64,000 nt of DNA. Origin: Roseimicrobium gellanilyticum. Lineage in GTDB: Bacteria; Verrucomicrobiota; Verrucomicrobiia; Verrucomicrobiales; Verrucomicrobiaceae. The stretch spans positions 838,881 to 902,880 of the forward strand of contig NZ_QNRR01000002.1 in assembly GCF_003315205.1 (NCBI RefSeq), given 5' to 3'. A program made the translations under genes and the position numbers. The notes beneath the pieces are model-generated. The model was given only the letters and a program-made list of their open reading frames with translations, was not told the origin of the DNA and did not search any database. Below are positions 28,143 to 64,000 of the stretch, piece by piece; position 1 is the stretch's first letter, and each line of letters begins with the position of its first letter.

Positions 28143-28339
28143 GGTGAGAAGAACAATGGATCATTCCACGTGCTCGAAGCAAGCCGCGGAGTTCTTTCTT
28201 CCACGCGAGGGGATGGAGTCCACCAAGACTCACCAGCGTTTGAGTACAGCGCCTCCAGTTCCGAATCCAAATCGAGCAGTGCCGAGGAGCAAGAGACAAT
28301 GCCAAACTCGACCACCTCGAGAGCTCGCTTTTGAAAAAG

Positions 28340-28423
28340 TACCGGCGGTCGGACTCGAACCGACACGTCCTCGCGGACACAAGATTTTGAGTCTAGCGCG
28401 TCTACCAATTTCACCACGCCGGC
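28340..28423 (-). tRNA. tRNA-Leu (CAA), no CCA encoded
   Basis: Class II tRNA. Acceptor GCCGGCG/CGCCGGT (terminal G-T), D arm GTGAAATTGGTAGAC, anticodon loop CTCAAAA giving anticodon CAA. A variable arm built on GTCCGCGAGGAC follows, then T arm GTCGG-TTCGAGT-CCGAC and discriminator A. The bases after it are CTT, so CCA must be added post-transcriptionally, unlike the Asp and Glu tRNAs here. One T-T mismatch occurs in the anticodon stem. A 37-nt piece nearly identical to its D and anticodon arms occurs near 58.1 kb. Confidence 0.93.
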
Positions 28424-55720: not shown

Positions 55721-56293
55721 CTAGTCGCGTACGATGGTCGCTTTCCCGGGAGGCTTGGAGCCAGCGGCATTGAGGTTGTAGTCGCCCACGTCAAATGTCA
55801 GCCAACCCACGGGCACGGGAGGCGCCTTTTGATGCTCACCGAGCACGTTGAAGTATCCGTCCGGTTTGTGGGCATTGCCCTCTCCGGCCCACTCAATCGA
55901 GACACTGATGGGCTGATCGCCAGGCGCTTTGAAGACCAGCTCGCCATCCAGCAGGATCGTCTTCAGGGGCGACGCATTGAAATCCTGCACGTCCCAGAAC
56001 TCGATTTTTCCAACCTTCTCCTGTCCCATGTCCGTGCGGACCGTCGCACTCAAGTGGAACTGGCCACCATTCCCCTGAGTACCCGAGGAACCCGGCGCCC
56101 CGAGCGTAGCGCCCTTGGCTTCGATGCCTCGAAAGATGAACTTGTAAAGGCCGCCGGGGAAGTCATAGCGCACCTTGAAAGGTGCCTGGGTCGTCTTGAC
56201 CGAACCAGTGGGAACCCCGGGGCCACCGAGGGTGATATCTGCTAGGGCCGGGAGAGCCAGCAGCGACAGTGTGATTGATAAGAGCGCTTTCAT
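55721..56293 (-). CDS. Secreted protein of unknown function
   Basis: 190 residues. Signal peptide MKALLSITLSLLALPALA followed by DITLGGPGVPTG. The mature part is strand-rich: FKVRYDFPGGLYKFIFRGIEAKG, GGQFHLSATVRT, ILLDGELVFKAPGDQPISVSIEW and VGWLTFDVGDYNL. It looks like a beta-sandwich or jelly-roll protein. A start nine codons upstream is possible but weakens the signal peptide. Located at the edge of the accessory region; nearby DNA has short repeats with GAGCAATT just upstream of its start. Confidence 0.65.
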   Translation of the reverse strand: MKALLSITLSLLALPALADITLGGPGVPTGSVKTTQAPFKVRYDFPGGLYKFIFRGIEAKGATLGAPGSSGTQGNGGQFHLSATVRTDMGQEKVGKIEFWDVQDFNASPLKTILLDGELVFKAPGDQPISVSIEWAGEGNAHKPDGYFNVLGEHQKAPPVPVGWLTFDVGDYNLNAAGSKPPGKATIVRD

Positions 56294-56389
56294 GCAATTG
56301 GCAATACAGAGCAAAAACATGGTTTAGCCTGCAATTTAGAGCAATTATGAGCAATTTGAAGCAATGCCCTACGCCTAGTTCTTAGCTCC

Positions 56390-56640
56390 GCCTCAGCATG
56401 GTACTTCGGTCTCAATCCTCCGGCCCAGCCCCGCTCGCCGGTCTTTCTGGGGCCGGAATTGCTCAGACTGCCAGAGATTGTGACCAATGCCTGGAAACCA
56501 CATCCATCACCACACGCTCCCGCTACCCGGCGCGCGAAAACCACCGGCGCATCATCTCCTAGATGCATCGCTACCTTGATGATTGCCATGCTTCATCTCC
56601 CGCCGCGGCATCTTCTGACCGCACGAAGGATGAGGCCACA
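56390..56640 (+). pseudogene. Decayed REP-associated tyrosine transposase (RAYT) relic
   Basis: Two frames together resemble the intact RAYT about 0.9 kb downstream. Frame 1 (near 56402-56530) reads WYFGLN, LPEIVTNAW and HPSPHAPATRRA, matching YFTTF, IPAPVLQAW and HPPPHDAATQRA. Frame 2 (from 56542) reads HRR, then an in-frame TAG, then MHRYLDDCHASSP, matching HRRFTVRMHRFLDDCHGSCP. The frameshift, stop and missing HxH/Tyr half show it is dead. No gene was found between the relic and 56820. Confidence 0.55.
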
Positions 56641-56820
56641 TCGCCCGCCAACTACCTCAAACGTCCCGCTACGAGCCCACGAAAACGTCCGCTTCGCCCA
56701 GCTGCTCGGGTAAACGATGGATTAGCAACTGCACGATTGTCCGATGCCTACGACTCTTTCTTCTTGTTCCCAGAGTAGCCAAAGACCAGATTATTGGCAG
56801 GAACACCACTCGCTCTTGAG

Positions 56821-57045
56821 ATGAACTTTCCCGACGAAGCGAAAGACTGTGTCATGGCAACCTGCCGGAGTGCAGGCGCCCAATTCTCCGTCATCAGCGT
56901 CATCCAGAAGTTGTCCGCGAGCCGTCCGGACCTGCTGCACGAGTTCCCCGATGCCTGGGACAGACTCGTCCGGGAGCGAAAAGTGCGGATCTCCCGCGCC
57001 GGTGAACCCTGTTTGTATGAGGTATCGCAGGGGGATGTTGGCTGA
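56821..57045 (+). CDS. Small protein of unknown function, possible winged-helix-like
   Basis: 74 residues, no signal peptide. Helical stretches (PDEAKDCVMATCRSAGAQFSVISVIQKLSASRPDLLHEF) are followed by a beta-hairpin-like end (KVRISRAGEPCLYEV). The order could suit a small winged-helix fold, but no motif proves it. A TTG start nine codons earlier is possible. It lies between the RAYT relic and the REP-like repeats, so it could be a passenger of the accessory region. Confidence 0.4.
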   Translation: MNFPDEAKDCVMATCRSAGAQFSVISVIQKLSASRPDLLHEFPDAWDRLVRERKVRISRAGEPCLYEVSQGDVG

Positions 57046-57074
57046 ACTGACCCGCGAGCGGGGAGACTGCTGAA

Positions 57075-57292
57075 GGAACACCAAACGTGGCTTCGCCAAT
57101 GTGGCCCACGCTGCCCCCCAGCGTGAATTAGAACCCAAGCGCGAAGCGCCCAATTTCTCATTCCGGTATATTGCAAACCACCCGCCTAACGCATTCTTTT
57201 CTCCCGCCGCCCATTCCAAGCATCCACAAGAGGCGCTGCGCGCAAACGGTTCAATTCACGCTGAGGGCAGCGTGAGCCAGATTGATGGCGCT
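57075..57292. repeat. Inverted pair of REP-like units (family C) left of the RAYT gene
   Basis: Two units face each other. Each contains the hairpin CACGCTG-loop-CAGCGTG (at 57107-57125 and 57257-57274), flanked by a second GC-rich palindromic arm (AAGCGCGAAGCGCC on one side, GGCGCTGCGCGC on the other). The left unit also carries an extension (ACCAAACGTGGCTTCGCCAA) that recurs inverted at the far right copy (58441-58470). Between the two, about 80 nt hold no gene. Confidence 0.78.
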
Positions 57293-57351
57293 TCACTTTT
57301 GTGCTAACAGCAATCTACACCAAACAATTTGTCTGACGCATCCCCTGCAAC

Positions 57352-58011
57352 ATGATTGAACCCTTCCTCTCCGACCCACACCCCTGGGCCACGATTGGAA
57401 GCGGCAGAGGAGGGGAGTACGCCTGGTTCGAAGCCGAGGCGGAAGTCGGCCATGCATGGGGAAGGCATCTGCCCCACTGGCGGCAGGGTGGGGTGGTCTA
57501 CTTCACCACCTTCCGTACGGAGGATTCCATCCCGGCGCCGGTGTTGCAGGCCTGGCAAAGAGAGCGTGACCAATGGCTCGAACTTCATCCGCCTCCGCAT
57601 GATGCTGCCACCCAGCGCGCATACCATCGACGCTTCACCGTCCGCATGCATCGTTTCCTTGACGACTGCCATGGTTCCTGCCCCATGCGTGATCCTGCCG
57701 CTAGGAAGATAGTTACTGACGTCCTGCTGCATGACGATGGCAAGGAAGGAACCGAAGGCTGTGCCCTGGATGCCTTTGCCGTCATGCCCAATCACGTGCA
57801 TGTCCTCGTCTGTCCAAACCCCGATACCTCCATGTCAGAAGTCGGCAAGACCTGGAGGCGAATCACCTCCCATCATCTGAACAAGCACCTGGGTCGCCAC
57901 GGCATCTTCTGGCAGCACGAAGGCTGGGACCACATCGTCCGCAGCCCACGGCATCTGGACCGCTACCGCCGCTACATTTGGGAGAATCCCTTACATCTGC
58001 CGAAGGTATGA
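57352..58011 (+). CDS. REP-associated tyrosine transposase (RAYT, Y1_Tnp/IS200-like)
   Basis: 219 residues. Y1 transposase motifs: VVYFTTFRTED near residue 48, AFAVMPNHVHVLV with HVH at 148-150 (metal-binding HUH), IFWQHEGWDHIVR and the C-terminal YRRYIWENPLHLPK with candidate catalytic Tyr205/Tyr208. Single-copy RAYTs process REP hairpins as single strands. Both sides carry inverted REP-like units, as expected for a REPtron. A start further upstream is unlikely because the REP unit lies only 60 nt before the ATG. Confidence 0.85.
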   Translation: MIEPFLSDPHPWATIGSGRGGEYAWFEAEAEVGHAWGRHLPHWRQGGVVYFTTFRTEDSIPAPVLQAWQRERDQWLELHPPPHDAATQRAYHRRFTVRMHRFLDDCHGSCPMRDPAARKIVTDVLLHDDGKEGTEGCALDAFAVMPNHVHVLVCPNPDTSMSEVGKTWRRITSHHLNKHLGRHGIFWQHEGWDHIVRSPRHLDRYRRYIWENPLHLPKV

Positions 58012-58130
58012 CCTAAGCGGAGGAGTTGGGAATGGCAGGGGGGAGCTAAAAGCCCACCACGAAGGCCTTGCTACATCCCGTTGACGATTGGTTTTCGCAC
58101 AAGACTAAGGATCTCGTGCCGAAAGCAGTC

Positions 58131-58167
58131 GTGAAATTGGTAGACGCACTAGACTCAAAATCTTGTG
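58131..58167 (+). repeat. Partial tRNA-Leu (CAA) fragment, 37 nt
   Basis: GTGAAATTGGTAGACGC, then A, then CTAGACTCAAAATCTTGTG matches the D arm to anticodon arm of the intact tRNA-Leu(CAA) at 28340-28423 with a single change (A for G). Neither acceptor stem nor T arm is found around it. Such partial tRNAs are left where integrating elements insert at a tRNA or where a duplicate has decayed. Confidence 0.75.
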
Positions 58168-58198
58168 CTCATGCTGCAAGCAGACTGCCTTCCAAAAA

Positions 58199-58475
58199 GG
58201 AGCGCCAGCAAAGTGGCTCACGCTGCCCCCAGCGTGAATCAAAAACCCAAGCGCGAAGCGCCTAACTTTCTCAGGGGTCAGCTACCCGCCTGACACGACA
58301 CCTTCCTCGCAGTCACCAGCCGGCGCACAGGGCAGCCATCATCCGGCACTGTGGACGCGATCTCCCAAGAGTGACAACACGCCAAGGAAACAGAGGCGCT
58401 GCGCGCAAAAGGTTCAATTCACGCTGGGGGCAGCGTGAGCCACATTGGCAAAGCCTCGTTTGATGTGCCTCGATG
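58199..58475. repeat. Inverted pair of REP-like units (family C) right of the RAYT gene
   Basis: Same unit as on the left, with hairpin cores CACGCTG-loop-CAGCGTG at 58219-58236 and 58421-58438. The right unit carries the extension CCACATTGGCAAAGCCTCGTTTGAT, the inverse of the extension of the far-left copy. The left unit of this pair shares its inner flank (GGCGCT...TGGC) with the inner unit of the left pair. The RAYT is therefore framed symmetrically by four units. Spacers share TTTCTCA and ACCCGCCT. Confidence 0.78.
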
Positions 58476-58847
58476 GGGGAGACCACGGCGGGAGGGTAGG
58501 GCAGGGGCGAGGGTGGCCCCCGGCTATGCCGCTCCAAGTTGGGCGAGGGGGCGCGATGCGCGTGCTAGCTCCGCCGTCCATTGCGCCGCCCTCGGTTGCG
58601 GTGGCGGTCGCAGAGGCAGTGCGGCTTTCTTCGCTGCATGCCAATTCGCAAGGCCCCGAACTTCAGTTCGGTGGCCGGTATGCCGTCTATGTAGCAAAAA
58701 ACGTCAGCCGTGCGTAGACACGGAAGCACGTATTGCACCTGCGGCGCTTTGCGCTTTGCGCTTTGCCCTCATCGTTGTGGTTTTCTGACGGGCCTTGTAA
58801 ACCCGGCTGCTTGTAACAGTGTCGCAATACAGTCCTAGACTAAGAAT
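58476..58847. other. Gene-free GC-rich stretch between REP-like units and the HEPN-like gene
   Basis: No reliable gene; one frame of about 90 residues on the plus strand lacks any recognisable fold and is not called. A small hairpin (CCGAACT/AGTTCGG) lies near 58656-58671, and a triple repeat of GCGCTTT near 58742-58768. The stop codon of the next minus-strand gene comes directly after this stretch. Confidence 0.35.
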
Positions 58848-59555
58848 CTAGTCAACATCTTTTTTTGGCAGGCGTTTGAGAATGAGCAAGAGTCGAATAG
58901 CAGTTTCGACGAACTCCATTGCCACTTCAGGAGTAACGGTCTCTGGCGCGTGCACCGCCGTATTTCGTACATTTCGGAGTTTCAAGTAAGCCTCTGCCGC
59001 AGAATCGTCGATGCTCATCAGCGCGAGTCGCACGAGAGGGAAATGTTGCTTAGCTCTTGAGGTCACTATCGCGGCTTCTTCAGCGACCCTTTCCCACATT
59101 CGCACGATGGCAGATACTGGAGCAAGCAAGGCCTCTGCACGGAGAGCCTGGACATCCAACAACTCTTGCATCGACCACCCGGCGTAAGGCTGAGCAGGGG
59201 TGGGCGGAGGCGTAGTAGTCGGGGCAGGGGTATTGGTAGGGGTGGTGACAGCCGCCTCCAAGTCACCTTCCTTTGTCTCGACGTTCTCAGTAGCTCGCTC
59301 AACAGCATCCGAAGCCGCCACCAAATCGACCTCCATTTCGCCGTACTTCAGCTTTGAAAGACGCATCTTCTTGAGAAGCTCCCTAATATCAGCCCTCAGA
59401 AGATACACAACGAGCACCACTGCAACGGGCCAAGAAACCTCACCTAGGAGCTGGAGGAAAGAGGGAACAAACAGCCTAATGAATTCGGAAAATACGTCGC
59501 CGAATTGCTGGAGAAGAGGCGGCAGAAATACCGTGATGAATTCGCTGTACGTCAT
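58848..59555 (-). CDS. Membrane protein with HEPN/DUF4145-like C-terminal domain
   Basis: 235 residues. Two hydrophobic stretches near the N terminus (about 4-33 and 41-54), then an amphipathic charged part (about 55-100) and a Thr/Pro linker (TPAPTTTPPPTPAQP). The C-terminal 110 residues are all-helical, with LRNVRNTAVHAPETVTPEV near residue 200. The R-N-T-A-V-H pattern (R-x4-H) resembles the catalytic motif of HEPN RNases, though related domains are often structural. A terminator-like hairpin lies 12 nt before its start. Function unknown; a membrane-linked nuclease or toxin is one possibility. Confidence 0.65.
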   Translation of the reverse strand: MTYSEFITVFLPPLLQQFGDVFSEFIRLFVPSFLQLLGEVSWPVAVVLVVYLLRADIRELLKKMRLSKLKYGEMEVDLVAASDAVERATENVETKEGDLEAAVTTPTNTPAPTTTPPPTPAQPYAGWSMQELLDVQALRAEALLAPVSAIVRMWERVAEEAAIVTSRAKQHFPLVRLALMSIDDSAAEAYLKLRNVRNTAVHAPETVTPEVAMEFVETAIRLLLILKRLPKKDVD

Positions 59556-59599: not shown

Positions 59600-59860
59600 T
59601 CGAAGACTCCTAGCTGCTGATGAGGGCAAGCTAAGGGTGATTAACACCTTCTCACTTTTTTTCAAGCGATTCTGTCAAACGATATTTTGTTTAATATTAC
59701 ATACAGTGCATAACAGCATTTGTATAACCATTCCCCTCTTGAGTGGCGCTTATCAAGCGCGCCGTAATTCGGCAGCGTATAGCCATTTGTATAATTCAGA
59801 CGCTACACCGCAGCCGTTCCACGTGTTTTATGATACACCAACGCAATGCGCAACAACGTT
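59600..59860. other. AT-rich intergenic region with short repeats
   Basis: Markedly AT-rich compared with the rest of the window. CATTTGTATAA occurs twice in the same orientation (59717-59727 and 59784-59794), 67 nt apart, in similar context. GTTCCACGTGTTTT at 59816-59829 resembles half of the palindrome at 60916-60929. No ORF is convincing. A promoter, operator or origin could lie here. Confidence 0.4.
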
Positions 59861-60154
59861 CTAATGCGCATCGGCATTTGCATCACCCCCACCGCTATGG
59901 TTGGCTCCGTCTGCTTTCGCCTCCGTGCCTAGCTTTTTCCAGAGCCCTTGAATTGCACGAACACCCGTTTCCCGCTTGTACTGGTGGCGAATTTCAGAAT
60001 CCAAGTATTCGATTTGTGCCTCGAGCTGACGAACGTAGAGCATGAGCTCTTTTCGTCGGGCAAGCGCTTCGTGGTACCGACGAGAATCACAGTATTCCTG
60101 AAAAGTTCTTGATATGGCATCGATGTAAAACCTGACACTTTCCCGCCTTGTCAT
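59861..60154 (-). CDS. Small coiled-coil protein of the accessory region
   Basis: 97 residues. Strongly helical, charged coiled coil: RRYHEALARRKELMLYVRQLEAQIEYLDSEI with heptad hydrophobics. N terminus TRRESVRFYIDAISRTFQEYC looks like a second helix; the C terminus is flexible (GANHSGGGDANADAH). No signal peptide. A degraded second copy lies at 55094-55309, showing that this gene and its upstream region have been duplicated in the region. Its gene and the following TM protein gene lie on the same strand 91 nt apart. Confidence 0.65.
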   Translation of the reverse strand: MTRRESVRFYIDAISRTFQEYCDSRRYHEALARRKELMLYVRQLEAQIEYLDSEIRHQYKRETGVRAIQGLWKKLGTEAKADGANHSGGGDANADAH

Positions 60155-60245
60155 CCGCGTTTTTCCTTTCCACCCCTCGGAGAAAGATTTCTAAGCGGCG
60201 GAAAAACGCAAACGAAAATCGTAGGAAGCGGCTCAACTAGTCACA

Positions 60246-60599
60246 TTACCTAGGAATCATTGGGTGGGGGGCATGCTGCCGTGCCGGTGTCGGCTTAATA
60301 GTCTGCTGCGGGTTGCGTCGCTGCGTTGTAGTTCTTTGGAGTTCCTGGAATTGACGTTCCAGTTGGGCCGCTGAATTGTTAAGGTCTTTCAAAGAGTCCG
60401 ACGTCATGCCCGAGGTTTGCTTCAGCCCTTGCGCAGCTGAGTCCACTACTGCTGTAAACAAAATAAATATCAGGACACAACCGACGATTCCTGTCAGGAC
60501 GCCGAGCGACATCACACCCACTAGAAAAATTACCACTCGCTTGTGCAACAGGTAAATCTTTCGCAAGGTCTCCGCTGAATCGTTGTTTAGTCCATTCAT
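60246..60599 (-). CDS. Small membrane protein with polar C-terminal helix
   Basis: 117 residues. One or two hydrophobic segments (VVIFLVGVMSLGVLTGIVGCVLIFILFTAVV, about 22-52) are followed by a helical polar stretch (SAAQGLKQTSGMTSDSLKDLNNSAAQLERQFQELQRTT) and a Pro/Gln/Arg-rich tail. Soluble N terminus of 20 residues (cytoplasmic if the polarity follows the positive-inside rule). Size and layout fit small virion or assembly proteins, but no family is recognised. Divergent from the plus-strand gene cluster. Confidence 0.6.
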   Translation of the reverse strand: MNGLNNDSAETLRKIYLLHKRVVIFLVGVMSLGVLTGIVGCVLIFILFTAVVDSAAQGLKQTSGMTSDSLKDLNNSAAQLERQFQELQRTTTQRRNPQQTIKPTPARQHAPHPMIPR

Positions 60600-60961
60600 A
60601 TGTTAATGAGGCACAAAGTTTCGCCTTCAGCAACCGGCGGCAGCGAGTAGTTTGTGCATCTGGGTACGTGGCACACGTACGCGAGTAGGGAAGTCACAGC
60701 AGCTTTTCCGCCTATCTACGAACCTACGGTTCATCGCCGCCCACTGCAGGTGTAAAACGGAACCTTTTCGACGTCCGACCACTATTCCGTTTGACGCCTG
60801 CATTGGGTTTCTAATCACCTCGCTACGCTCGCCGGAGCTTCGGTTACGGCTCTTGAGATGGGATAGCCTGAGTTCCTCAGGCTTTCGATGCACTTGTGCA
60901 TCTTAGTTAATAATAGTTCCACGTGGAACATAACATACTGTATCACACCACCTCCGAAGCT
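60600..60961. other. Intergenic region with several perfect palindromes, candidate regulatory or replication region
   Basis: Lies between divergent genes. It contains three hairpins or palindromes: GTACGTG-GCA-CACGTAC (60664-60680), GCCTGAG-TTC-CTCAGGC followed by TTT (60866-60885), and TGCACTTGTGCA (60889-60900). It also holds GTTCCACGTGGAAC (60916-60929). Short ORFs through it have no support. The density of palindromes in a 360-nt gap between small genes is unusual; promoters for both flanks must be here. Confidence 0.5.
60915..60930. promoter_or_regulatory. parS-like palindrome upstream of the plus-strand small-gene cluster
   Basis: AGTTCCACGTGGAACA holds a perfect 14-bp palindrome. It differs from the consensus chromosomal parS (TGTTTCACGTGAAACA) at three of sixteen positions. 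The position, 32 nt upstream of the first gene's ATG, also suits an operator for a repressor. Which of the two it is cannot be told here. Confidence 0.5.
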
Positions 60962-61204
60962 ATGAACAGATTGAACAAACTTGCCGAACTCGTTGACCTG
61001 CATATTAAGCGTCTCGAGGAATTCCACGCCGAGGACCAAGCAACCATCACTGCACTCTCCACCGAGGACCAATCTGCAAACAGCACAGTCGTCCGGGAGA
61101 GCTACAGCAGAGGTAGCAGACTGGCATTTGAAATCTCGCTGGGCAAGCTGCGCGACATCAAAATTGAGGTCTCGCGGATGCTGGAGAAAGGGGGTGCCGC
61201 GTGA
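60962..61204 (+). CDS. Small helical protein of unknown function
   Basis: 80 residues, all-helical: NRLNKLAELVDLHIKRLEEFHAED, STVVRESYSRGSRLAFEISLGKLRDIKIEVSRMLEKGG. No signal peptide; two amphipathic helices with a polar link. An upstream in-frame GTG would place its start on the palindromic site, so the ATG is preferred. Its stop (TGA) overlaps the next gene's GTG as GTGA, showing translational coupling in a tight three-gene operon. Confidence 0.6.
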   Translation: MNRLNKLAELVDLHIKRLEEFHAEDQATITALSTEDQSANSTVVRESYSRGSRLAFEISLGKLRDIKIEVSRMLEKGGAA

Positions 61205-61464
61205 GCGGGATTCGCTCCCTCGAGGTCCATCCATCCCAGATGGACCTCCTTTGCACCGCGACAACGCATCTGGTGCTTGCGTGCAAGCATGAGGCTGACG
61301 TCGCCCAGGACAATGGGTGGGACGCCAGCGCCGAGGAGTGGCGCACCAAGGCGGCTAAGGCAGAGCACCTGCAACGGACGCTCAATGAAATCAGGCAGGA
61401 ATTCGACCTGGACCCGCACTTCATCCTACAGGTAACCGTAGCTCCCGCATGCATCGTGCTATGA
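61201..61464 (+). CDS. Small helical protein of unknown function
   Basis: 87 residues with a GTG start, overlapping the previous stop by 4 nt. Mostly helical: HPSQMDLLCTATTHLVLACKHEADVAQ, DASAEEWRTKAAKAEHLQRTLNEIRQEFDLDP. Two cysteines lie 9 residues apart in one helix. No motif identifies a role. The next gene overlaps its stop by ATGA, so all three small genes are translated together. Confidence 0.6.
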   Translation: MSGIRSLEVHPSQMDLLCTATTHLVLACKHEADVAQDNGWDASAEEWRTKAAKAEHLQRTLNEIRQEFDLDPHFILQVTVAPACIVL

Positions 61465-61733
61465 CGGACGGCTTCTGCAAACATCCGTTCTGCTTGGAGC
61501 TGCCCGCCGAGGGCGGCTTCCGCAGGGCGGAATTCTGTTCGACCTCGTGCAGGGTAGGATACCACAGGCACCACAAGAAGAGGCTGCGTGCACTTTACAC
61601 CAACCTCACCGCTTACGCTTGGTCTCAGTCACCACTGCCATTCCTAGTCCGCGACCACGCAGTCGAGGTATACCGTATCTCGCACGGACTACCGGCACGG
61701 AAGAGAGGGCAAAGCCTGTCCGACCAGGTATAA
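61461..61733 (+). CDS. Small zinc-binding-like protein (Cys/His-rich)
   Basis: 90 residues. The N terminus has FCKHPFCLEL, then EFCSTSCRVGYHRHHKKR: C-x4-C and C-x3-C with a following H-x-H-H, enough for one zinc site. The rest (LYTNLTAYAWSQSPLPFLVRDHAVEVYRI) is alpha/beta. Short zinc-finger proteins of this style are often phage- or plasmid-borne and bind nucleic acid. Start MTDGFC overlaps the previous stop by ATGA. Last gene of the plus-strand cluster. Confidence 0.65.
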   Translation: MTDGFCKHPFCLELPAEGGFRRAEFCSTSCRVGYHRHHKKRLRALYTNLTAYAWSQSPLPFLVRDHAVEVYRISHGLPARKRGQSLSDQV

Positions 61734-61780
61734 CGTTAACCGGTACGTTTACGTTTCCTGCAGGAAGCATGAATTCCAAT

Positions 61781-61843
61781 CTGATACTTTTATCCCACGC
61801 CGGTGAGCTGCCTGGCGCGGGTTTTTCCATCTTAAAGTATCAG
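61781..61843. terminator. Nested inverted repeat between convergent genes, plus-strand terminator
   Basis: Outer arms CTGATACTTT/AAAGTATCAG (10 bp, perfect) enclose an inner GC-rich stem CCCACGCC/GGCGCGGG (one A-C mismatch) with a T run (GTTTTT) after it on the plus strand. The inner part is a good terminator for the plus-strand cluster; the outer arms allow a long cruciform that overlaps the stop codon of the minus-strand gene. Confidence 0.68.
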
Positions 61844-62127
61844 TTGCTGTCTACCTCGTCCGAGATGCGATTGCGCTTGCTCGGAGGACGCCGCATCCTT
61901 TTACTCCGACAGTCATCCGTTTCGCAAAACCAGCTTCCATCCTTAGTCCTCGCCGAGACGAGCTGATGAGGCCGGGCGAAAAGTACGTCGCCATTGTCTA
62001 GGCTCAGAATCCACCACCGTGCAAGATTTCTCGATCCAGACATCTTAAGGTCAGCTTTCGTCACATGTCTCACGATGCGGCCGTTGATTCTTTGGTTCCA
62101 GTCTGTGCGCCAATCGGGTTTCGCCAT
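61840..62127 (-). CDS. Small protein of unknown function downstream of the secretin
   Basis: 95 residues, no signal peptide. N terminus KPDWRTDWNQRINGRIVRHVTKADLKM, then ARWWILSLDNGDVLFARPHQLV and a basic tail (CRSKRMRRPPSKRNRI). The C-terminal charge and aromatic strands suggest nucleic-acid or protein binding. It lies 7 nt after the 114-residue gene on the same strand and probably ends the secretin operon. Not recognised. Confidence 0.55.
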   Translation of the reverse strand: MAKPDWRTDWNQRINGRIVRHVTKADLKMSGSRNLARWWILSLDNGDVLFARPHQLVSARTKDGSWFCETDDCRSKRMRRPPSKRNRISDEVDSN

Positions 62128-62134
62128 ACGTTAG

Positions 62135-62479
62135 TTAAGGTTGTTTAAGTTCCTCCTGCAAAAGTCCAAATTTTCCGGGGACAGGGGCGCTGGTCACGGA
62201 GCACACGGGTCCCGACACGCTTTCCGGCCACGTCGAGGCGTCCTCACTATCGCCACGCCAATAGCGCCCAGCAGCCTTACAGAGACGCATACGAGCCCAA
62301 TCCCGCTCCATGGACTTCTTGGCATCCAAACGCGTCTGTGGAGGCCTCTGTGGGTCCTCTGCTATCGCACGCCATTTCTCGGCGTCGCGATACCAGTGAT
62401 AGTAACCAAGCCAAAGCGTGCACCGGCGCTCGCGTGTGTGCCACTCGCGCCAGAGTTCCTCTGATGCTGCTTTGCTCAT
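62135..62479 (-). CDS. Small protein of unknown function, overlapping the secretin gene
   Basis: 114 residues, no signal peptide. Trp/Tyr/Arg-rich first half: ELWREWHTRERRCTLWLGYYHWYRDAEKWRAIAEDPQRPP, then MERDWARMRLCKAAGRYWRG; the end is disordered (SGPVCSVTSAPVPGK). The start overlaps the secretin stop by 4 nt (ATGA), so translation is coupled. Function unknown; no similarity to pilotins was seen, for example no signal peptide or lipobox. Confidence 0.55.
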   Translation of the reverse strand: MSKAASEELWREWHTRERRCTLWLGYYHWYRDAEKWRAIAEDPQRPPQTRLDAKKSMERDWARMRLCKAAGRYWRGDSEDASTWPESVSGPVCSVTSAPVPGKFGLLQEELKQP

Positions 62480-63876
62480 TTGCCGAAAAGGTTGCTCACG
62501 TCTCTGGCGCCAGCCTCTGCCGGCAGTGGCGCCCTTCGCGCTGTTTCAAACGCGGCAACTCGCGGCGTCACGAAGAGAAGGATTTCCTTGGTCTCTACGC
62601 CCTTCTTCCTGCTGCCAAACAGCACACGCAGGCCGGGCACCTTCACGAGGCCTGGGATACCGGTGGTAGTCTCTGTGTCTCTACGCGTGCGCAGACCGCC
62701 GAGAAACACCGTCTCAGAGTCTCCACCAACCACAATGTTTTCAACGCCCTGCTCACTGATGTTCGGCAGGCTGTCGCCCTGCACCTCGCTAAAGCCAGTG
62801 ATGTCGTTTTTCTGCTGCTTGAAGTCGAGACGTATCTTTCCGCCTGCGAGCAAGTGAGGCGTTACCGTCAGCTCCAGACGCACCGGCAAATACTCCGTGG
62901 TCCGCACCGTGGCAGTCTCCGTCACCGTTCGCCCAGGTATCGGCACGCGCTCACCAACATAGATGTTCGCCTCCTTGTGATTGAGCGTTTGCAGCTTCGG
63001 ACGCTGGATGATGCGGAAATTCTCGAGCTTCGCGAGGGCCTGTAGCACTGCCGTGTAATCCTTCCCAACCTGTCCGAAGAGTGTCAGGCCTTCACCACCG
63101 AAGAGGGCAGGGGAGCCGCTCCGCACCTGAGCCAAGTCAATGAGGCTGGCACCGCGTATGGTACCAGCCAAGCGCAGCGACTCCGTTGCCTGCGTGAACA
63201 CTTGGGACCAGTCCACGCCCACACTTTTGGAATCGTTGAACGTGTACTCCGCTATGACGACCTCCAACTCGACCATGGCGGGCGCTTGGTCCATCTCCTG
63301 AGCCATGCGCAGCAGCTTTTCGCGGCCCTCCTGTGGGCCGTAGCAGGTGATTGCATTGCTCGCGTAGTCTGGCACCACCCGGAGCCCAAACGCAGCTAGA
63401 ATCCCGCCTACCTGCAAAGGAGCAGCCGCGGGAATTACAGCGTCACCACCGGGCAACACGGGCGCACCCACACTGGACCCCGGAGACGTGATTTCTCCCA
63501 CAACCCGCGACTGCACAGGATTGCCACCGAACTGCGGCTGATTACCTGCCCCAATGGCCGAAAGGAATTCCACCACAGGCAGCGACCGGAAGACGAAGCG
63601 TTGCGCGTCCAGTTCCACCACACGGCGGCGCATGGAGACACGCCCACGTTCCTGCACCACCTCGACGCCTTCCAGCTCCAGTGAATCGCGTATCCACTGC
63701 GCTGCATGCTCCGACTCCATGGGCCGCATGGCCCGCACCGTCACCCGACGCTCTACAAGCTCAGGGTGCACCATGACGCGAAGGCCTGTGCATTCCTCAT
63801 ACACGTCTGCGACCTCCTGCACGGGCACCCCTTCGAACTGCAAGCTGACCACCCCAACTAGGACAGCGAAAATCAT
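62476..63876 (-). CDS. Secretin (GspD/PilQ/pIV-like outer-membrane channel)
   Basis: 466 residues. A short hydrophobic N terminus (MIFAVLVGVVSL) could be a minimal signal peptide. N0-like domain about 12-60 (GVPVQEVADVYEECTGLRVMV) is followed by an N-domain with VPDYASNAITCYGPQEGREKLLRM (about 168-190), then the secretin domain: VELEVVIAE (202-210), RPKLQTLNHKEANIYVGERVPI and the C-terminal GIPGLVKVPGLRVLFGSRKK and EILLFVTPRV. Size fits filamentous-phage pIV or short pilus secretins. Its neighbours are tiny unknown genes, not pilus or type II genes, which favours a phage origin. Confidence 0.85.
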   Translation of the reverse strand: MIFAVLVGVVSLQFEGVPVQEVADVYEECTGLRVMVHPELVERRVTVRAMRPMESEHAAQWIRDSLELEGVEVVQERGRVSMRRRVVELDAQRFVFRSLPVVEFLSAIGAGNQPQFGGNPVQSRVVGEITSPGSSVGAPVLPGGDAVIPAAAPLQVGGILAAFGLRVVPDYASNAITCYGPQEGREKLLRMAQEMDQAPAMVELEVVIAEYTFNDSKSVGVDWSQVFTQATESLRLAGTIRGASLIDLAQVRSGSPALFGGEGLTLFGQVGKDYTAVLQALAKLENFRIIQRPKLQTLNHKEANIYVGERVPIPGRTVTETATVRTTEYLPVRLELTVTPHLLAGGKIRLDFKQQKNDITGFSEVQGDSLPNISEQGVENIVVGGDSETVFLGGLRTRRDTETTTGIPGLVKVPGLRVLFGSRKKGVETKEILLFVTPRVAAFETARRAPLPAEAGARDVSNLFGK

Positions 63877-63878
63877 AC

Positions 63879-64000
63879 TCAGTCGTCGCCCCCTCCTGAA
63901 GCGATTCGAAACGCGTTAAAGATTATTTGGACTCCGAGCCCGAGCCCGGCACCGGTGCCGAACCCCATGAAGACCAAGAACGCCGTGTATTGGAAATAGC
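63879..64000 (-). CDS. Small membrane protein (5' part beyond window edge)
   Basis: The last 39 residues are visible: YFQYTAFLVFMGFGTGAGLG followed by LGVQIIFNAF and RIASGGGDD. A single glycine-patterned membrane helix with a short acidic end matches the style of minor coat proteins (pVI, pVII or pIX) and similar small membrane proteins. It ends 2 nt before the secretin start, so the two are coupled. The N-terminal part lies outside the window. Confidence 0.5.
   Translation of the reverse strand, partial: YFQYTAFLVFMGFGTGAGLGLGVQIIFNAFRIASGGGDD

Follow-up and report, generated by a model that had tools for sequence, protein, structure and literature searches.

Two inverted hairpin pairs around a transposase gene

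The window (the whole stretch of DNA analysed, 64,000 nucleotides) lies in contig 2 of a genome of 7.93 Mb in 32 contigs and contains, at 57352..58011 on the + strand, a RAYT gene encoding a protein of 219 aa. As a sequence-only reading had claimed, this Y1 transposase gene is flanked by two inverted pairs of a hairpin unit. The left pair, or left REPIN (57075..57306, 232 nt as cut), is formed by the outer unit U1 (57075..57130, + strand, hairpin 57107-57125, tag GTGG at 57101-57104) and the inner unit U2 (57252..57306, − strand, hairpin 57256-57275, CTGG at the tag position). The right REPIN (58187..58469, 283 nt as cut) is formed by the inner unit U3 (58187..58241, + strand, hairpin 58218-58237, tag GTGG at 58213-58216) and the outer unit U4 (58415..58469, − strand, hairpin 58419-58438, tag GTGG on the − strand). 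With a covariance model, U1 to U4 scored 61.2, 54.2, 57.6 and 75 bits, respectively, and both REPINs were aligned with five stretches from the genome of a sister species (G001).

The same hairpin therefore stands inverted on both sides of the gene, and the units alternate in orientation (+ − + −). The outer arms (57074-57118 and 58426-58470, 45 nt) are 89% complementary and the inner ones (57254-57299 and 58194-58239, 46 nt) 85%; the earlier description of the locus as nearly mirror-symmetric, with one extension in the outermost units and another in the innermost, was thus accurate. This symmetry derives from the presence of two copies of one inverted pair having outer and inner extensions. 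Since the right pair moreover repeats the left one in direct orientation (57229-57284 versus 58392-58447, 95%), a fuller description is that of one copy of an inverted-pair element on each side of the gene.

Aligned in one orientation, the four units have in common CAA-N-NTGG-C-NCACGCTG-CCC(C/T)-CAGCGTGA-AT, with a perfect 8-bp stem and a CCC(C/T) loop to which U1 adds one extra C. A tetranucleotide of the type GT[AG]G occurs at the 5' foot of the hairpin in three of the four units (GTGG in U1, U3, and U4), and the CTGG of U2 (T/G lost) counts against the interpretation of the locus as a REPtron. The extension located 5' of the tag is ACGNGGCTTNGCC in both outer units and a different one, containing GCGCCA, in both inner units. 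Beyond the hairpin, each pair shows CCCAAGCGCGAAGCGCC in its left member and, in the + strand reading, GCGCTGCGCGCAAA in its right one. The recurrence of the unit exceeds chance: a search for CACGCTGN{2,6}CAGCGTG as an exact core gave 6 sites in the 7.93 Mb, four of which are U1 to U4 as judged by their sequence, versus 0 for the reversed control. An Rfam search of positions 56000-59500 yielded no match at E ≤ 1.

To the left of these elements lies the degenerate relic of a second RAYT (56449..56672, + strand), damaged by a stop codon and frame disruption. It was detected as a tblastn-type match (42%, E 5.4e-4) with an internal TAG, its DNA alignment reached a score of 117 (highest score among 200 shuffles, 40), and it holds a 75% copy of positions 57895-57966.

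Other features occur in the neighbourhood. Between the RAYT stop codon and the right REPIN, positions 58128-58167 (+ strand) duplicate the first half of a tRNA-Leu(CAA) gene (28339-28423) over 40 nt, 38 of them identical. Further to the right, the region 59600-64000 looks like a prophage of the filamentous-phage type, with a secretin at 62476-63876 (6.5e-35). The matching stretch of G001 (L402) encodes a protein with a Zot domain and gives a weak match, below the cut-off, to a replication protein; the blocks follow a different order in the two genomes, resembling a circular permutation.

Family and fold of the RAYT protein

The 219-aa protein matched the Pfam domain Y1_Tnp (2.1e-7), and its best NCBIfam match was the equivalog REP-associated tyrosine transposase (REP_Tyr_transpos, NF047646; 9.2e-15). 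Its score of 54.8 bits missed the curated cut-off of that family (80 bits), which counts against the REPtron reading. In a sequence search of solved structures, the E. coli RAYT (4ER8) was the best match (E 0.0097), the sole other one listed having an E value of 0.94. The predicted model (mean pLDDT 85.4, pTM 0.81) retrieved the same structure, the E. coli RAYT bound to its REP, at the top of a Foldseek search (E 2.4e-5), with all the IS200/IS605 transposases ranked below it. The TM-scores of the model against 4ER8 were low (0.38/0.49), another point against the REPtron reading.

The residues expected of a Y1 HUH nuclease with one catalytic tyrosine are in place: H148 and H150 form the HUH motif and are invariant, together with W187 and R197, across 46 sequences, and Tyr208 is nearly so. 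Besides HUH and Tyr, the W-Q-D-H-R residues are conserved, His194 corresponding to E. coli position 101. Family, residues and fold together identify the protein as a RAYT, an IS200/IS605-like Y1 HUH nuclease.

There is a single copy of this gene in its genome, in addition to five other intact homologs at 35–45% identity, and the nearest relative among the matches listed (L038, from genome G062) is 50% identical. No match to the RAYT was found in phage records, and plasmid records contained one distant match (28.5% identity). A search with this single protein retrieved no match among named relatives; with the RAYT alignment, many of the named loci recovered belong to Verrucomicrobiota, the phylum in which the host can probably be placed as well.

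Dispersal of the unit and readings of the locus

The sequence-only reading had also proposed that the gene has its own REP family, a claim that would fail if the unit were absent elsewhere in the genome and in relatives. We searched with a covariance model built from 22 units (4 from the window, 3 from elsewhere in the same genome, and 15 from G001, the only other genome of the genus searched). It found 10 units in the host genome (G000), 4 at the locus and 6 elsewhere, and 17 in G001. A model necessarily recovers the units from which it was built; 3 of the host matches and 2 of the G001 matches were outside it. The unit is consequently present in both genomes, and the REP family proposed by that reading is real. 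The six units outside the locus occupy five places, two of them overlapping in opposite orientation at C2:936722-936803. They are singles or this overlapping pair and not intact REPINs, which counts against the REPtron reading. The 17 units of G001 comprise nine singles and four complete pairs of ~218 nt each, with start-to-start distances of 162, 163, 163, and 166 nt. The gene thus exists as one intact copy plus a relic, whilst 6 and 17 further units are dispersed without it. These numbers are far from the high copy number typical of known REP families (often over 100), yet such abundance is not needed for a REPtron; passages of PMC3733652 report REPtrons in species without REP families. The bare core pattern was also present in 49 of the 67 genomes of the family searched; as the loops were mostly unrelated among the matches listed, its occurrence outside the genus is probably due to chance.

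Comparison with the sister species revealed pairs that are present in one genome and absent from the other. Six G001 stretches were used as queries together with their flanking DNA. For five of them, namely the four pairs and L397, both flanks were found in the host genome, and the covariance model detected no unit in any of these five matching intervals; the differences may stem from units gained by one lineage or lost from the other. For the sister REPIN L391, ~37 nt separate the flanks in the host genome versus ~293 in G001, with edges that align too loosely to define exact insertion points, and the alignment for L393 was looser still. A weak 79% REPIN match was seen in the host genome at C13:18808-18872, ~0.8 kb beyond the L397 interval, which was absent from the model matches at E ≤ 0.01. 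At the REPtron itself, the left flank (56671-57056) is 82% identical to G001 and the right-flank similarity (72%) starts at 58467, the outer end of U4 and of the right REPIN. The two flank blocks are ~11 kb apart in G001, where a clean empty site of the whole REPtron was not obtained. Beside one sister REPIN (L392, query ~1476-1549) we also observed another dispersed repeat of ~70 nt, found in ~40 places in the host genome.

We conclude, with a probability of roughly 0.9, that the locus is a REPtron composed of a single-copy RAYT and its cognate REP, with one REPIN on each side of the gene. This interpretation brings together the RAYT identity of the protein, the tagged hairpins that flank its gene as inverted pairs, the units dispersed in both genomes, the uniform spacing of the four G001 pairs, the five intervals without a unit in the host genome, and the prevalence of own-hairpin framing among related RAYT loci (see below). 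The anatomy of the locus, the family of its protein, the dispersal of the units and the differences in pairs between the two species of the genus were observed directly, the fold in a predicted model; the activities of the enzyme (binding, cleavage, mobility) are proposed by analogy with E. coli and other RAYTs, the latter from passages of PMC8266576 dealing with the cutting and spreading of repeats. On that model, when the locus or a dispersed REPIN becomes single-stranded, the RAYT would bind the GTGG-tagged hairpin on one strand, cut beside it through Tyr208 and rejoin the ends, such that the repeat pair, and not the gene, would be copied or moved to intergenic sites.

A challenge to a strict match between this RAYT and its repeat comes from G001, which lacks an ortholog of the gene (ten RAYTs, the best at 45% identity; at the DNA level, similarity to the gene is confined to short stretches common to paralogs), an absence that also counts against the REPtron reading. 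Nevertheless, its eight paired units score 65–80 bits, as might be expected if one of those ten other RAYTs had kept the sister REPINs moving in trans, REP and RAYT not being strictly matched. The hairpins of two of them (L028 and L032) share the GTGGC foot, although their stems are quite different, and the loss of the cognate RAYT after the repeats had spread would explain the pattern equally well. We regard mobilization in trans as doubtful, albeit worth serious consideration. Much less credible is an ordinary insertion sequence of the IS200/IS605 type, with the hairpins as subterminal ends and the 45-nt outer arms bounding the whole moving element. The right outer arm does coincide with the loss of sister similarity (58467-58470), and a second, decayed RAYT adjoins the locus. 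However, full gene-bearing copies number one in the host genome and none in G001, the other host homologs are only 35–45% identical, the copies at other sites are units or pairs lacking the gene, and the fold search placed 4ER8 ahead of every IS200/IS605 transposase. Finally, the direct repetition of the left and right pairs might have suggested that the four units arose merely by rearrangement at the locus, a local duplication that the 6 additional units in the host genome and the 17 in the sister species rule out almost completely.

Hairpins and tags of other RAYTs, and known REPtrons

Within the family, having a hairpin of its own is the norm for a RAYT, and tags other than GT[AG]G occur as well. 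We surveyed a first set of 157 RAYT loci (the matches listed from 68 genomes of the family plus the loci of the host genome and G001), considering a hairpin as paired when a common 6-base arm occurred on both sides within 450 nt. Among these matches, 98 of 157 loci had one hairpin on both sides, versus a mean of 4.1 and a maximum of 9 when partners were shuffled 500 times, and 0 with shuffled flank sequences. A wider set, reduced from 170 to 135 loci (coverage ≥0.7, and <80% identity both among themselves and with the first set), gave a similar picture (94 paired; mean 4.3 and maximum 10 in 300 shuffles). Such systems are therefore frequent and diverse in this lineage. In the host genome, three of the six RAYTs have a hairpin on both sides, each with a different stem. 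The L002 RAYT (C5:320361-320927) is associated with the GGAG-footed hairpin family GGCACTA..TAGTGCC, whose core occurs at 34 sites of the genome (control, 1), many in pairs ~105 nt apart, which indicates that REP families of unequal size coexist here.

Tags were called by a script from DNA alone, with a rule that was changed once after the first table with residues had been seen and left unchanged for the wider set. Tags of GT or GG type were assigned in 155 of 292 loci (GTAG 53, GGAG 42, GTGG 25, eleven others 35); left out were 96 loci without a called tag, 23 ambiguous ones, 11 whose tags had other letters, and 7 called GGTG or GGTA and excluded post hoc as shifted in register, 4 of which have His and would be contrary cases if taken as GG. 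At the position equivalent to E. coli 101, a residue among those discussed for recognition of the GTAG guide in passages of PMC6006769, His was found at 89 of the 100 GT loci, the other 11 having Arg (6 of these exceptions with Asn for Asp at position 100), and the 55 GG loci comprised 47 with Arg, 8 with Thr, and none with His. In a reading that we consider less likely than not, RAYTs of this family and its relatives would be split by the residues around 101 into those with GT tags (GTAG, GTGG, GTGA, GTAC, GTTG) and His and those with GG tags (GGAG and kin) and Arg or Thr.

The three best-associated of 205 columns all map to the segment aligned with E. coli 94-111, and columns 98 and 108 associate with the tag as well as 101 or better. 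The tag class changes only 2 times in a tree of the 157 family loci (83 rows) and 4 times in the wider set, where 3 independent pairs lie on supported branches; in those pairs residue 101 follows the tag in 0.9 on average and shows no difference in 2.1. We did not accept a one-residue tag code, given these few independent changes and the behaviour of columns 98 and 108. The association is consequently a lead, not a result, and for GG tags it reflects mostly one clade split and not a proven code. The host genome has one GTGG system and two GGAG systems; if the association were causal, it could represent a specificity switch of a hairpin nuclease letting one genome keep several REP families apart. 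In the main texts of the RAYT papers searched, GGAG was absent at word start, and no paper among those listed in a library search joined REPIN, RAYT and GGAG. In the first survey, the position of E. coli Gln95 was Gln in 25 of 26 GTAG loci and Met in 4 of 5 GTGA loci, a possible link with the last tag base. Two loci (L049 and L054) have pairs whose hairpins carry different tags, GTAG and GTTG.

These data add, beyond the well-studied gammaproteobacteria, a complete REPtron equipped with a REPIN family of its own. The sister species, with REPINs but without that RAYT, offers a natural case for asking how repeats would persist or decay in the absence of their enzyme, and the survey provides ready RAYT/hairpin pairs with which the choice of repeat by the enzyme can be studied.

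The locus is a complete REPtron, ordinary for its kind, with a low-copy REPIN family. With known RAYT/TnpAREP REPtrons (E. coli, 4ER8; Stenotrophomonas and Pseudomonas types) it shares a Y1 HUH protein, inverted REPs on both sides, a single-copy gene, the GT[AG]G tag at the hairpin foot and the organization of REPs as inverted pairs. It differs from them in its perfect 8-bp stem, CCC(C/T) loop, few copies, and long N-terminal part, in the conserved sequences that extend the unit upstream (5') of the tag and downstream (3') of the hairpin, which bring the pair to ~218 nt in the sister species, and in a host that, by its relatives, is not a gammaproteobacterium. The L038 RAYT of G062 has a GTGG-footed hairpin with a CCCT loop just upstream, with a different stem and without a matching hairpin found on its other side. 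GTAG-tagged REPs outside Gammaproteobacteria are already in print, since passages of PMC3733652 include Opitutus terrae (Verrucomicrobia) among their hosts; by description, not by sequence, these resemble our case as tagged REPs in Verrucomicrobia, from which it differs by its small family and GTGG tag. The TIRYT/TIRtron described in passages of the same paper likewise has a RAYT-like gene between long inverted repeats, but a REPtron fits our locus better because its inverted repeats contain tagged hairpins.
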